DNA of 23,452 bases from a virus: positions 1 to 23,452 of the IMG/VR virus record IMGVR_UViG_3300006920_000254; one strand, 5' to 3'. The notes beneath the pieces were generated by a model that did not search any database, was not told where the DNA came from, and saw nothing but the letters and a program-made list of their open reading frames with translations. A program made the translations under genes and the position numbers. This document shows positions 13,948 through 22,087 of this stretch, piece by piece (within the stretch, counting starts at the first letter, position 1; the number at the start of each line of letters is the position of its first letter).

Positions 13948-14045
13948 TGCCATATTTCATTATTGACAAAGAATCGAAAAAATATGGAAGGATGGTAGTT
14001 CCTAAAATGGCACATAACGGATTGGTGCTTTCTGATGTGGCGTGA
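13947..14045 (+). CDS. 32-residue small ORF, translationally coupled
   Basis: An ATG overlapping the previous gene's TAA (TAATG) opens 32 codons that end in TGA at 14043-14045. The product starts M-P-Y-F-I-I-D-K-E-S and is basic with a hydrophobic end. I cannot name it. The tight junction is what the other real gene pairs in this window use, and the 54-base gap afterwards holds no other frame. It could also be a remnant of a longer gene. Confidence 0.4.
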   Translation: MPYFIIDKESKKYGRMVVPKMAHNGLVLSDVA

Positions 14046-14099
14046 GCCAATACCAAACAAAACTAAATAAAAACAGAACATTAACTTTAAATATAAATA

Positions 14100-14357
14100 A
14101 TGGAAAAACAGATTAAAAAAGAGAGAGAGGCTATTGTCGATTTTAAGGGTGCTTTAGATTTTTATGAGCATACCAATAAAGGGCATAAGTTAAGCAGAAA
14201 ACTATTAGCTGAACAAACTGGAGTAAGTGCAGCTAACATGACTAATTGGGCAAAAAAAGGCAATAAGATGCTAGGATTTTTGCTAACATTACATGAGCAA
14301 ACGGGTTTTCCTTTGGAGCAAATCATTAAAGACGTACAAGAATGGAAAAGCAATTAA
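14100..14357 (+). CDS. HTH transcriptional regulator (small, XRE/Cro-like)
   Basis: An 85-residue protein with a helix-turn-helix at about 31-51: L-S-R-K-L-L-A-E-Q-T-G-V-S-A-A-N-M-T-N-W has the A-x-x-x-G-V-S spacing typical of Cro/XRE-like recognition helices. The rest is helical, consistent with a small dimeric DNA-binding protein. It is placed early in the early operon on the same strand, and no divergent partner repressor is present. It could be a Cro-like or CII-like regulator of the early/late switch. The operator may be the tandem repeat at 13664-13700, but this is untested. Confidence 0.65.
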   Translation: MEKQIKKEREAIVDFKGALDFYEHTNKGHKLSRKLLAEQTGVSAANMTNWAKKGNKMLGFLLTLHEQTGFPLEQIIKDVQEWKSN

Positions 14358-17252: not shown

Positions 17253-17996
17253 ATGGTAGAAGTAAAAGAAAGAATAGGTAGGTTTACAAGTAGTCAAATT
17301 TGGAAACTTACAACAAGCGACAAAAGTGGAAAAGGATTTGGATCACCTGCATTAACATATATTGAAGAAAAAAGAGCTGAAAGGAGTTTAGGGCGTTCAA
17401 TTGATTTAGGTGCAGTTTCTCAATCTTTAACATGGGGCAAAATAATGGAGTATTACTGCAATAAATTTCATTTAGATATTAGCTATACGCTTTGTTCAAA
17501 TATTACAGACGTGCATCCTAGATATAAGTTTTGGAGTGGCTCAAAGGATGCTACAAAAACAGATACAGCAGTAGAGATAAAATGTTTCGAGCCAAAAAAA
17601 TTTTATCAATTATCAATGGCACTTCTAAAATTGGATGCTGGAAAAATAACTTTAGATAATTTTAAAAAGGATTTCAAAGAAGTTTATTGGCAAGTAATTT
17701 CGAATGCTATAATCTTAAATAAACCATTTTGCGAGATTATTATTTACACTCCAACAGAAGAACAATTAATTCAAATTAGGCAAGAAATTGAAGAAACTAA
17801 TGTTTTGGAAAAATTAGGCATTGAACCTTGGCAAGGTAGATTTATCATTGAAAAAGATGTTTACAATTTACCATATATTCCAAATGGTATTGAATATCCA
17901 AACTTTGTAAAATACAGATTCCAACCTATTGCAGAAGATGTTATATTTTTAAATCAAAGAGTACTAATGGCTGAAAAATTATTGAGTAATGAATAA
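17253..17996 (+). CDS. PD-(D/E)XK recombination exonuclease (YqaJ / lambda exo-like)
   Basis: A 247-residue nuclease. F-T-S-S-Q-I-W-K-L at 11-19 is the usual start of this family. T-W-G-K-I-M-E-Y-Y at 60-68 corresponds to the G-x-x-x-E helix. The catalytic core is S-G-S-K-D at 95-99 followed by E-I-K-C at 108-111, giving D99, E108 and K110 as metal and catalytic residues. Y-W-Q-V-I-S-N-A is the downstream Q-helix. It would resect DNA ends to give single strands for the Sak4-like annealing ATPase encoded two genes upstream. The start at 17253 and the 8-base overlap with the next gene fit the operon. Confidence 0.8.
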   Translation: MVEVKERIGRFTSSQIWKLTTSDKSGKGFGSPALTYIEEKRAERSLGRSIDLGAVSQSLTWGKIMEYYCNKFHLDISYTLCSNITDVHPRYKFWSGSKDATKTDTAVEIKCFEPKKFYQLSMALLKLDAGKITLDNFKKDFKEVYWQVISNAIILNKPFCEIIIYTPTEEQLIQIRQEIEETNVLEKLGIEPWQGRFIIEKDVYNLPYIPNGIEYPNFVKYRFQPIAEDVIFLNQRVLMAEKLLSNE

Positions 17997-20157
17997 AGAA
18001 TATTTAGAGTTTTTGGAAACAAAAAAGAAGTCATTTGTAGAAAGTGGATTTGATATTAAAGAAAACAAATTGAATCCACTACTAAAAGACTTTCAAAAAT
18101 ATGGTGTTAAAACTGCATTAAAAAAAGGAAAATTTGCTTTTTTCTTTGATTGTGGTTTGGGTAAAACTTTTTGTCAATTAGAATGGGCAAAACAAGTAAG
18201 TTTAAAAACAAAAAAGAAAGTTTTAATACTTGCACCTTTGGCAATTGTAGAACAAACAAAAGAGGAGGCTATTAAGTTTGGTATTGAAGTTGATGTTTTT
18301 GACATTACTAATTATGACCAATTAAAAAATACAGATTGTAGTGTTTATTCTGGTGTTGTTTTAGATGAGAGTAGTATTTTAAAGGGGCGTGATGGTAAAA
18401 TATCAAGTTTAATAATTGAAACTTTTAAAAGAACTCCTTACAAGTTAGCATGTACGGCAACTCCATCACCTAACGACCATATGGAATTAGGGCAGCACGT
18501 TGAGTTTTTAGGCTATGATACATATGAAAATATGAAATCAATGTTTTTTGTTCAAGACCAAAAAATTAAAAGCAATGACAAATGGCGATTAAGAAAACAT
18601 GCACAAGATGATTTTTGGAAATATGTTTGTACATGGTCTATGGCTATTGATAATCCTGCAACTTTAGGGTTTGATTCTGATGGATATTATTTGCCAGAAT
18701 TAGAATACATTGAACATATTATTCCAGTAGAAAACAATACAAATTCTTTATTTGGTGATGTTGCTGTTTCTGCAACCGATTTGCACAAAGATTTAAATCG
18801 TTCTTTTGATAAAAGAATTGAGAAAACAATTCAATTAGTTAACTCGAATGATAATCAATGGATTGTTTGGGGTTTGAAAAATTTAGAAACCGATACGCTT
18901 TCTAAATTACTTGATAATTCTGTGAACGTTCAAGGGTCTGATAGTCCAGAATATAAAGCCAAGCACTTAAACGGATTTGCTAAAAATGAATTTAAAACAT
19001 TAATTACTAAAACATCAATTGCATCTTTTGGTATGAATTATCAACAATGCCATCAAATGGTTTTTATGAGTTATGATTTTAAGTTTGAAGCATTTTATCA
19101 AGCAGTAAGGCGTTGTTATAGATTCGGACAAAAAGAAAAAGTAGTTGTACATATTTTGATTCCAGAAAGTCAAACAAACGTAAGACAAACTATTTTAAAA
19201 AAACAACAAAAACACTTTGAAAAAATTAAACAAATGGCAAAATATTCAGCAGACAAAGACTATAAGGAAAATATTGAAATTGAAGAAATAAAAGAAAAAG
19301 AATTTAAGGGTGATAATTTTTGGATTATCTGTGGCGATGCTATTGAAGAAACAAAAAGAATTAAAACTGAAAGTGTAGATTACTCTTTTTTTAGTCCTCC
19401 TTTTAAAGATTTATATACTTATTCAGACGACCCAAGAGACTTAAGCAATGTTACGAGTGACGATGAGTTTTATAATCATTTTAAATTTTTAGTTCCAGAG
19501 TTGTTTAGGGTATTGAAAACTGGTCGTTTGCTATCTATGCATATAATGCAAGGGACTACTTCTATTGGTAAAGATGGTTATTTATCAATTATTGATTTTA
19601 GGGGTGAATTAATTAGGTTGTTTCAAGAATTTGGATTTATTTTTCATGCAGAAGTTATGATAAGAAAAAATCCACAATTAGCAGCGGTTAGAACTAAAAA
19701 CATTCAATTAATGCATGGTCAAACAAAACGGGATAGCTCAATAAATCGTCCAGGACTTGCAGATTATGTTATTACTTTCAGAAAACCAGGTTTAAATGAA
19801 CATAAAATTAAAAACAATATTGATTTTGATACTTGGTGTAAATTAGCTGAACCAGTATGGTTTGATATAAATGAAAGTGACGTTATTTCAAACTTTAGAC
19901 ATGCAAAAAGCAACAATGACGAAAAGCATATGACACCTACTCAATTAAGTGTAATAAGAAACTGTTATTTGTTATGGACAAATGAATTTGATGTTTGTTT
20001 TAGTCCTTTCGGAGGGGTAGGAAGTGAAGGATGTCAAGCTTTAAAAATGAATAGAAAATCAATAAACATTGAGTTAAAAAAATCTTATTTTAATTTAAAC
20101 GTACATAATCACAAATCTTTTGAATTAGAAAAAAACTCAATTTTAACTTTATTCTAA
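17989..20157 (+). CDS. SNF2-type helicase / DNA methyltransferase fusion
   Basis: A 722-residue two-domain protein. Residues 1-420 are an SF2/SNF2-like ATPase: motif I G-L-G-K-T (56-60), motif II D-E-S-S (126-129), motif III T-A-T-P (156-159), and motif V/VI with Q-A-V-R-R-C-Y-R-F-G-Q (371-381). Residues 440-705 are a permuted DNA amino-methyltransferase: motif IV F-F-S-P-P-F (467-472) and, at the C-terminal side, S-P-F-G-G-V-G-S-E-G (672-681) as the S-adenosylmethionine motif I. M-T-P-T-Q-L (648-653) stands where H-P-T-Q-K-P usually lies. The order IV then I and the S-P-P-F form suit beta-class N4-cytosine or N6-adenine enzymes. A translocating modification enzyme for anti-restriction is plausible. 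Confidence 0.83.
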   Translation: MNKEYLEFLETKKKSFVESGFDIKENKLNPLLKDFQKYGVKTALKKGKFAFFFDCGLGKTFCQLEWAKQVSLKTKKKVLILAPLAIVEQTKEEAIKFGIEVDVFDITNYDQLKNTDCSVYSGVVLDESSILKGRDGKISSLIIETFKRTPYKLACTATPSPNDHMELGQHVEFLGYDTYENMKSMFFVQDQKIKSNDKWRLRKHAQDDFWKYVCTWSMAIDNPATLGFDSDGYYLPELEYIEHIIPVENNTNSLFGDVAVSATDLHKDLNRSFDKRIEKTIQLVNSNDNQWIVWGLKNLETDTLSKLLDNSVNVQGSDSPEYKAKHLNGFAKNEFKTLITKTSIASFGMNYQQCHQMVFMSYDFKFEAFYQAVRRCYRFGQKEKVVVHILIPESQTNVRQTILKKQQKHFEKIKQMAKYSADKDYKENIEIEEIKEKEFKGDNFWIICGDAIEETKRIKTESVDYSFFSPPFKDLYTYSDDPRDLSNVTSDDEFYNHFKFLVPELFRVLKTGRLLSMHIMQGTTSIGKDGYLSIIDFRGELIRLFQEFGFIFHAEVMIRKNPQLAAVRTKNIQLMHGQTKRDSSINRPGLADYVITFRKPGLNEHKIKNNIDFDTWCKLAEPVWFDINESDVISNFRHAKSNNDEKHMTPTQLSVIRNCYLLWTNEFDVCFSPFGGVGSEGCQALKMNRKSINIELKKSYFNLNVHNHKSFELEKNSILTLF

Positions 20158-20760: not shown

Positions 20761-21003
20761 ATGTTTTGGAAAAAGAAAACACAAGAGGAAAAAATGGCTA
20801 AACGTGTTTCAAGTGTTTTAGCTGAATTGACATCTGATATTGAAAGTAGTTTTACTGAATTGGAGCATGTTCAAATATTGAATGAAGTACGTAGAAGATT
20901 TGCAGAACATTTGACAAATTCAAAGAATGAGAATGTTAGTAAAAGTGTTGATTTTCAACAAAAAGCTAAAGAAATTCAAAACGCAATTGAATATCTGGAA
21001 TAA
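20761..21003 (+). CDS. small helical hypothetical protein
   Basis: An 80-residue, highly charged, all-helical protein. The first residues are M-F-W-K-K-K, a basic start of the kind that can dock at membranes but without a hydrophobic segment. The remainder is amphipathic helix with coiled-coil character. It starts two bases after the preceding stop. The -33 element of the downstream RNA promoter (TTG 20987-20989) lies inside its last codons. Function unknown. Confidence 0.6.
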   Translation: MFWKKKTQEEKMAKRVSSVLAELTSDIESSFTELEHVQILNEVRRRFAEHLTNSKNENVSKSVDFQQKAKEIQNAIEYLE

Positions 21004-21016
21004 TTTTTTACATTTG
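20987..21016 (+). promoter_or_regulatory. Bacteroidetes-type promoter, TTG-N19-TACATTTG
   Basis: TTG at 20987-20989 and TACATTTG at 21009-21016 are separated by 19 bases, matching the Flavobacterium consensus (TTG, 17-23 bases, TAnnTTTG). The expected start at about 21020-21022 coincides with the first base of a hairpin at 21021. This is the best-formed promoter in the window. Confidence 0.72.
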
Positions 21017-21020
21017 CAGA

Positions 21021-21118
21021 GTAGTTTGTCCACCTACGTTAAGATATTGGTTAACTAATAACCAAAACAACCCTTAATTAATTGGAGTGGACACCAATTT
21101 TTTAGGGGTTTGTTTTTT
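21021..21118 (+). ncRNA. candidate structured small RNA, about 98 nt
   Basis: Promoter to terminator contains no ORF but three hairpins. Hairpin 1 is GTAG/CTAC (21021-21037) with a 9-base loop. Hairpin 2 is TTGGTTA/TAACCAA (21047-21065) with a 5-base loop. Hairpin 3 is AATTGG/CCAATT (21080-21099), nested in an outer stem AACCCTTAA/TTAGGGGTT (21069-21110). The loop of hairpin 1 holds TGTCCAC (21027-21033), and the loop of hairpin 3 holds its exact complement GTGGACA (21087-21093), so a 7-bp loop-loop contact is possible. A T-rich tail ends the unit. A simple terminator would not need the first two hairpins. A regulator in cis for the gene at 21133 is an alternative. Confidence 0.6.
21069..21118 (+). 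terminator. long-stem terminator at the end of the small RNA
   Basis: AACCCTTAA (21069-21077) pairs with TTAGGGGTT (21102-21110) with one G-U pair, enclosing the AATTGG/CCAATT hairpin, and is followed by TGTTTTTT. With one bulged T (21111) the stem can be extended by pairing 21064-21068 with part of the T run, so termination may be partial. It ends 14 bases before the next ATG. Confidence 0.65.
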
Positions 21119-21132
21119 ATACTAAATATATT

Positions 21133-21354
21133 ATGATACACTCAATTTCAAAGAACACAGAATTTGGAAACGTAGAAATTCAAGTTTCTAAATCAATTAC
21201 TCAAGAAAAGTCGGTTACAATTTCAATTATGAAATTTGACCATGAAAACACACTTATTGATGGTTACGGAATTATTTTAAATGAAAATGAATATTTTGAT
21301 TTAATTGGTACTTTATTATTTGTTCAATCTCAAATTAAGAAAAATGAAAAATAA
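21133..21354 (+). CDS. small hypothetical protein upstream of the replication initiator
   Basis: A 73-residue, strand-rich protein (V-E-I-Q-V-S-K-S-I, then S-V-T-I-S-I-M-K-F) with a C-terminal helix ending in Q-S-Q-I-K-K-N-E-K. There are no membrane segments and no recognisable motif. It begins directly after the structured RNA/terminator unit and overlaps the initiator start by 11 bases, so its translation probably feeds into that gene. No TAnnTTTG box lies between the terminator and its ATG, so expression probably depends on readthrough. Confidence 0.6.
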   Translation: MIHSISKNTEFGNVEIQVSKSITQEKSVTISIMKFDHENTLIDGYGIILNENEYFDLIGTLLFVQSQIKKNEK

Positions 21355-22087
21355 CAGTTTTTTTGTAGTACAAGGTTGGATGATTAATTGTTTAAAATTA
21401 AAATCCAATGAATTATTAATTTTTGCTATAATTTATGGCTTTAGTAAAGATAATCAAGGTAAGTTTGACGGTTCTTTAAAATACCTTGCAGATGCTTCTG
21501 GAACAAGTAAAAATACTGTAATAAATGCACTTCACTCACTAATTGAAAAAGAATACATTATTAAAGAAAATGTAGTTATAAATAATATTACATTTTGTAA
21601 GTATTTGCAAAATGATATGGTGGTGCAAAATTTGGTAGGGGGTGGTGCAAAATTTGATGATTTAGGTGGTGCAAAATTTGGTACTAATAGTATAATTAAT
21701 AATAATATAGAAGATAAGAAGCAAATTCTTTTTTCTAATAATTTAAATAGTTTAGATACAGAAATAATTAAACCACCTAAAAAACAAAAAAAAGAAAGTG
21801 ATAGGGCAATTTTGTTTTCAGCATCTGATTGGATTAATTATGATACATTAAGGGAACACTTAAAACAAGATAAAGAATTTGTAAAAAATTATAAAGGTGT
21901 TGATTTGAAACATTATATTTCTAAAGCCGAAATGTGGAGCGAAAACAATCCAAATAAAAAAAGAACTAATAGAGGTTGGTTATTGACTTTGAGGGATTGG
22001 ATGAGAAGTGCATTAGAAAATAACGAATTAAAGCTATTAAAAGATTTTGTAGAAAAAAAAGAAAACAATGGATTTACAAATCACTAA
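21344..22087 (+). CDS. replication initiator (lambda O-like) with winged helix
   Basis: A 247-residue protein. I take the ATG at 21344 as the start rather than a TTG at 21305, because it gives the usual short overlap with the upstream gene and an N-terminus that goes straight into the domain. Residues 20-80 form a winged helix: N-E-L-L-I-F-A-I-I-Y then L-K-Y-L-A-D-A-S-G-T-S-K-N-T-V-I-N-A-L. A low-complexity linker at 92-125 is encoded by three DNA iterons and an AT-rich stretch. The C-terminal part (about 155-235) has a conserved W-x-x-x-N-P-N-K-K-R-T-N-R-G-W-L-L-T-L-R-D-W-M, typical of phage initiators that bring in a helicase. A DnaB-like helicase gene follows. Confidence 0.8.
   Translation: MKNNSFFVVQGWMINCLKLKSNELLIFAIIYGFSKDNQGKFDGSLKYLADASGTSKNTVINALHSLIEKEYIIKENVVINNITFCKYLQNDMVVQNLVGGGAKFDDLGGAKFGTNSIINNNIEDKKQILFSNNLNSLDTEIIKPPKKQKKESDRAILFSASDWINYDTLREHLKQDKEFVKNYKGVDLKHYISKAEMWSENNPNKKRTNRGWLLTLRDWMRSALENNELKLLKDFVEKKENNGFTNH
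21619..21680 (+). repeat. three 16-bp iterons inside the initiator gene
   Basis: GGTGGTGCAAAATTTG occurs exactly at 21619-21634, 21641-21656 and 21665-21680, with start-to-start distances of 22 and 24, close to two helical turns. Copy 1 is read as V-V-Q-N-L, while copies 2 and 3 are read as G-G-A-K-F, so the same DNA is kept in two reading frames. That points to a DNA-level function, namely binding sites for the initiator. A possible degenerate partial copy, GCAAAAT, is at 21607-21613. Confidence 0.85.
21619..21750 (+). other. predicted replication origin (iterons plus AT-rich unwinding region)
   Basis: The iterons are followed at once by a strongly A/T stretch: 26 of the 30 bases at 21681-21710 are A or T, with further A/T-rich sequence to about 21780. 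This is the layout of lambda ori within gene O, where initiator binds iterons and the adjacent AT-rich segment opens. The predicted initiator is encoded by the same DNA, and the DnaB-like helicase lies downstream, which supports the call. No DnaA box was evident. Confidence 0.7.

Follow-up and report, generated by a model that had tools for sequence, protein, structure and literature searches.

A 23,452-nucleotide stretch of viral DNA (hereafter the window) contains, just before its replication genes, a short segment in which a promoter, hairpins and a terminator follow one another closely and in which two hairpin loops are complementary to each other. This arrangement raises the question of whether the segment specifies a structured phage RNA whose loops make contact and, if so, what such an RNA does in front of these genes. 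The comparison with related phages makes us nearly certain that the segment encodes a promoter-hairpin-terminator unit with kissing loops. Judging from sequence data, we consider it probable (roughly 60%) that this RNA is a leader with a conditional terminator. The design is covered by no described RNA family and recurs before very different genes, with several copies per genome; Flavobacterium phages and many uncultured phages have it, and Bacteroides phage B40-8 probably does too.

Architecture of the unit in the window

The promoter, read directly on the sequence, consists of TTG (20987..20989, + strand), assigned to the -33 element from the Bacteroidetes promoter consensus, a 19-nt spacer, and TACATTTG (21009..21016, +), a -7 box of the TAnnTTTG consensus that is found at the same place in relatives. 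Because a flavobacterial map of transcription start sites places the TAnnTTTG box at -12 to -5 (PMC9723704), the predicted +1 is G21021, which coincides with the first base of hairpin 1. The first-pass annotation had proposed a Flavobacterium-type promoter with a start at about 21021, where the hairpin begins, and its coordinates were verified on the sequence.

Hairpin 1 (21021..21037, +) has a GUAG/CUAC stem (21021-24/21034-37) and a 9-nt loop containing the kissing word UGUCCAC (21027..21033, +). This 4-bp helix is absent from the single-sequence MFE structure and is supported by comparative evidence: in subtype B relatives, it is 98% paired and double changes are present. Hairpin 2 (21048..21064, +), located in the linker, is optional, being confined to subtype A and broken in one of its three members. 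Hairpin 3 (21070..21109, +) is the terminator hairpin, with an outer stem (21070-77/21102-09) and an inner stem (21080-85/21094-99), and is followed by a U-tract (T6; 21113..21118, +). The apex of this hairpin, loop 3, carries the second kissing word, GUGGACA (21087..21093, +), which was assigned from the sequence and from covariation. As had been claimed, the two loops are exact reverse complements (TGTCCAC and GTGGACA in the DNA), and the second word thus lies at the tip of the terminator. The predicted RNA is ~95 nt long, and the unit folds more stably than shuffled sequences (z = -2.8).

The segment had also been described as free of ORFs. Neither a start codon nor an ORF of its own was seen from 21021 to 21132, and a leader peptide was accordingly rejected; a mechanical 43-aa ORF (20927-21058) does overlap the segment, lying mostly within the upstream gene. 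This upstream gene encodes an 80-aa protein (phrog_6348; 20761..21003, +) and served as the anchor for finding relatives. The first gene behind the leader encodes a 73-aa protein (phrog_7002; 21133..21354, +), with its ATG 14 nt past the U-tract, and the second encodes a replication initiator-like HTH_36 protein (21344..22087, +). Elsewhere in the window, positions 17989-20157 encode a 722-aa protein whose N-terminal half resembles helicase profiles and whose C-terminal half resembles N6/N4 DNA methyltransferase profiles.

No Rfam 15 family matched the window or the genomes of FCV-1, FCL-2, and snusmum9-1 at the gathering threshold; by E-value, the best was MCS4 (E 0.57), far under its threshold. 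Flavo-1 (RF01705), which had been suggested for comparison, is likewise a small structured Bacteroidetes RNA motif, but its covariance model gave no match in 20900-21200 even at E <= 10. The covariance models of C4 antisense RNA (RF01695; window, FCV-1, FCL-2, and snusmum9-1) and phi29 pRNA (RF00044; window) found no match either.

Complementarity of the loops in relatives

A kissing or pseudoknot contact between loops 1 and 3 had been proposed from the window alone, and the relatives bear it out: the words change while complementarity is kept. In the Flavobacterium columnare phage FCL-2, BLAST found a matching intergenic unit at 37487-37588 (72.5% identity) with the loops CATCCAC/GTGGATG in place of TGTCCAC/GTGGACA, that is, with two compensatory changes. 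At the same locus of FCV-3, the loops are very different yet matching (GTAGAGAG/CTCTCTAC).

In an anchored sample, whose selection is independent of the RNA, the DNA behind the upstream 80-aa gene was examined in all loci. Fourteen distinct regions had the promoter, hairpin 1, and the terminator hairpin, and all 14 had loops with 6-9 nt of complementarity; loops that varied without compensation were not encountered among them. Differing words in this sample include GTGGAAG/CTTCCAC (L013), GTCAGAGC/GCTCTGAC (L026), and GTGGAACTC/GAGTTCCAC (L044). The anchored regions beyond these 14 had either a gene directly behind the anchor, the unit being absent, or other hairpins (FL-1, L090, and L095). 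Three relatives that lack the unit carry a different hairpin element near the same gene (L004, ~2530-2625; L090 and L095, ~2370-2450). In L004 and L095, it includes a TTGTGATAACA..GAGCC-like stretch, which L090 has in weaker form; this may be another RNA element.

The alignment of ten subtype B members contained 44 double-changed cells, compared with 13.4 in shuffles (0/500). Six of the eight kissing pairs showed compensatory changes, and the covariation signal was lost when the partner was slid by 1-3 columns. In subtype A (the window, FCL-2, and L012), all seven kissing pairs are kept, two of them through a double change. Several subtypes share no sequence similarity with one another, and common descent of all units is therefore not established.

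We also ran a detector with five requirements: a TAnnTTTG promoter, hairpin 1, a stable hairpin 3, a T-tract, and at least 7 nt of complementarity between the two loops. Applied to a first set of 151 non-redundant loci (959 kb), it detected 34 units, every one of them on the coding strand, and three dinucleotide shuffles yielded none; over all loci, the total rose to 45 distinct units, whose loop words number 37, and the minus strand again had none. Because the detector itself demands complementarity, these counts cannot be used as evidence of conservation, which comes from the anchored sample and the subtype A and B alignments; the counts show frequency and position. Word-to-word spacing in the first set, for which 25-300 nt was permitted, was mostly 51-63 nt, and 68-70 nt in subtype F. 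The outlier L128 (83 nt) is probably a false positive. The window unit belongs to the class thus delimited, having a TAnnTTTG promoter, hairpin 1, a terminator hairpin, and exactly complementary loops within the 44-70 nt range of distances.

Seven complementary bases can arise randomly, and a generic detector lacking the promoter and T-tract requirement indeed gave many false hits. However, the 34 units with promoter and T-tract stand against none in the controls, and relatives show compensatory changes. Because the loops covary, a merely fortuitous match is refuted, and we give it practically no weight.

Occurrence and genomic context

The next ATG lies 0-52 nt from the end of the unit in 44 of the 45 units (142 nt in L128), and no TAnnTTTG promoter was found in the terminator-to-gene gap of the tabulated promoter-plus-terminator units. 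Since 27 of 58 ordinary terminators in the same phages likewise precede a gene with no promoter in the gap, leader position alone is weak evidence.

The genes behind the unit are diverse. A phrog_7002-like small protein follows it in the window, FCV-1, L005, L011, and L045; a replication initiator is directly behind it in L007, L008, L119, L135, and several further distant relatives; a KilA-N protein is found in L026 and L101; and other units precede a helicase or NUMOD4/HNH homing endonucleases. Ahead of initiators in distant phages, a unit was present in 12 of 42 cases, compared with 2 in the reverse-complement control. At 80 viral NUMOD4-HNH loci, the unit immediately precedes the HNH start in 15 hits, of which 11 have a promoter, and no promoter-bearing unit was found on the other strand. 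A role in replication had been suggested, and the window unit does adjoin replication genes, but this association is not exclusive: given the further units in front of HNH homing endonucleases, KilA-N genes, and others, replication control would be one use of a broader leader device.

The same distribution bears on a DNA-level element, in which the words would form an inverted repeat to which a replication or repressor protein binds, or would belong to an origin. Operators can be inverted repeats, and the window unit does adjoin the replication module. However, the words sit exactly in hairpin loops, with a promoter ahead of them and a T-tract behind, and without exception on the coding strand; the stems covary too; and units are found in front of HNH and KilA-N genes as well. 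We therefore regard a DNA-level element as highly improbable.

Among cultured phages, FCV-1 (L192) has two units, the second of which accompanies its NUMOD4/HNH gene (gp61), unit and gene together spanning 40365-41149, whereas FCL-2 (L193, 40354-40536) has neither the second unit nor the HNH gene. Homology between the two genomes ends just past 40166 and restarts at 41126 (FCV-1 positions), and this interruption indicates that the second unit and the HNH gene were gained or lost jointly. Three units were found in snusmum9-1, one in FL-1, and one candidate, with a variant promoter, in Bacteroides phage B40-8. The unit is absent from the temperate phages 6H and laban6-1, and no promoter-and-terminator unit was found in Bacteroidetes chromosomes at the approximately 30 NUMOD4 loci and 4 initiator-like loci sampled. 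A search of 395 genomes with the subtype B covariance model gave one marginal match (E 9e-4) with unpaired loops, which was taken as chance.

Two annotation details emerged alongside. In snusmum9-1 (L281), the annotated hypothetical gp041 (14006-14101) overlaps the promoter and the 5' part of the kissing unit at 14071-14169 and probably does not encode a protein. The helicase is one 389-aa ORF in FCV-3 (L003, 3709-4878) and two ORFs, gp54/gp55, in FCV-1 (L192, 36870-38038).

Private words and a possible role in termination

Units within one phage always carry different words. The pairing energies of units sharing a genome were -9.2 to -12.6 kcal/mol for self pairs and +0.4 to -4.3 kcal/mol for cross pairs. 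Since the words differ between copies and hardly cross-pair within one phage, the pairing is private to each leader.

One alternative is an independent trans-acting small RNA, whose loops would target other phage or host RNAs and whose proximity to genes would reflect compact genomes. The unit is discrete and structured, is ~95 nt long, and has both a promoter and a terminator of its own, as expected of such an RNA. However, the loop words occur in only 0-2 further copies in the same phage genomes, near expectation; no fixed target is kept, because the words differ between relatives; and the second FCV-1 unit is present or absent together with the HNH gene. We thus consider this explanation unlikely. 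A search for other targets of the words within the phage genomes gave no clear enrichment. What survives of the earlier description as a phage small RNA is a structured unit outside Rfam with its own promoter, terminator, and covarying loops; that a free small RNA is made is conjectural, and such a form could have a role of its own.

Three features of a leader regulator are found together: a promoter, an intrinsic terminator, and a gene directly behind with no further promoter. Since no second promoter of the TAnnTTTG type was seen in the gap, the downstream gene needs read-through, and the simplest reading is a leader whose terminator is conditional or leaky, because any transcript expressing the downstream gene must pass the terminator. 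Transcription would begin at 21021 with hairpin 1, pass the linker, and reach the terminator hairpin, whose apical loop pairs with the loop of hairpin 1, as the covariation shows. The majority of transcripts would end at the U-tract and yield a stable small RNA, and the genes behind the leader, judging from their position, would be expressed solely through polymerase read-through. Most likely, the loop-loop pairing would tune termination. If it occurs within one molecule, it would set terminator efficiency; if it occurs between molecules, finished copies would pair with nascent ones and exert gene-specific feedback. No alternative antiterminator fold was identified.

By rough geometry, a straight monomeric kissing complex with all stems closed would need ~75-125 A, for which the linker is too short in 24 of the 45 units. 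In these units, the contact would therefore bend, compete with closure of the terminator base, or join two molecules. These short linkers also weigh on a purely structural explanation, namely that a kissing contact within one molecule serves to stiffen or protect the terminator or the 3' end of the RNA while the words drift neutrally with compensation. The strong covariation and near-constant spacing fit such a contact, as does the mean variability in subtype B, which is barely higher at kissing positions (0.42) than in the linker (0.40) and the terminator stem (0.36). However, about half of the units have a linker too short for a straight monomer, the words within one phage are never alike, and FCV-3 and L044 agree in all 21 stem pairs yet have exchanged four of the eight kissing pairs. 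We consider a purely structural role rather unlikely, though somewhat less so than an independent trans-acting RNA. Generally faster variation at the kissing positions was unsupported as an average by the subtype B values and was seen in single comparisons.

A conditional-terminator leader may instead be paired between copies. Two copies could form a swapped dimer through two contacts, each joining loop 1 of one copy to loop 3 of its partner; a short linker would suffice, and the arrangement would fit all units. This fit, together with the private words, makes self-recognition, and hence gene-specific termination feedback, an attractive model, and trans self-pairing between copies is a serious but minority possibility. 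The units might even constitute a phage-specific class of self-recognising leaders, in which each dosage-controlled gene (replication initiator, homing endonuclease, or regulator) would have a private word and termination would be adjusted by counting transcripts through swapped dimers; this proposal, likewise drawn from sequence comparison, is tentative. If it is true, a phage would count its own transcripts gene by gene, and distinct words would prevent interference among the units of one phage and those of co-infecting phages.

Functionally, the unit appears most like phage leader RNAs that terminate and are read through (IsrK, P4 CI, and P1 C4) and plasmid antisense attenuators. The P4 CI and P1 C4 RNAs are leader-encoded, pair with their own leader, and control early or replication genes of the phage, and their pairing sequences differ among heteroimmune relatives. 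In plasmid RNAI/RNAII and pT181-type antisense attenuators, loop-loop pairing provides specificity, with transcription attenuation as an outcome, and altered loops have reportedly yielded orthogonal regulators. The phi29 packaging RNA and ROOL/GOLLD are phage-associated RNAs with loop-loop contacts that are possibly intermolecular and vary with compensation. The latter RNAs are larger, have other folds and contexts, and are not leaders; the plasmid systems use two RNAs from opposite strands, whereas both loops lie in one RNA here; and P4 CI and P1 C4 pair through antisense segments, in contrast to two hairpin loops, one of them in a terminator. Moreover, P4 CI and P1 C4 serve lysogenic immunity, whereas FCL-2 is described as virulent (PMC8092290). 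IsrK of the Gifsy-1 prophage has its own promoter and terminator, with partial read-through into downstream phage genes, and the short transcript regulates the longer, read-through one in trans, at the level of translation and via alternative structures (PMC4825925). It resembles the present unit in the former respect but belongs to a different phylum and lacks both the terminator-loop kissing contact and a family of private-word copies. The kissing terminator and the private words are thus new relative to known phage leader and attenuator RNAs. In our literature search, neither a phage RNA of this kind nor RNA-seq of infected F. columnare came up; the data of PMC8092290 are from uninfected cells only.

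RNA-based regulation in Bacteroidetes phages would become directly testable in the cultured phages FCL-2, FCV-1, and snusmum9-1, and the covarying loop pairs represent a natural set of matched orthogonal RNA-RNA pairs within terminators. Across loci, the two loops usually differ in composition: a purine-rich, GTNRGA-like loop has a short spacer on its 5' side, and its pyrimidine-rich counterpart has an A-rich spacer on its 3' side. Either type can serve as loop 1, depending on the subtype.
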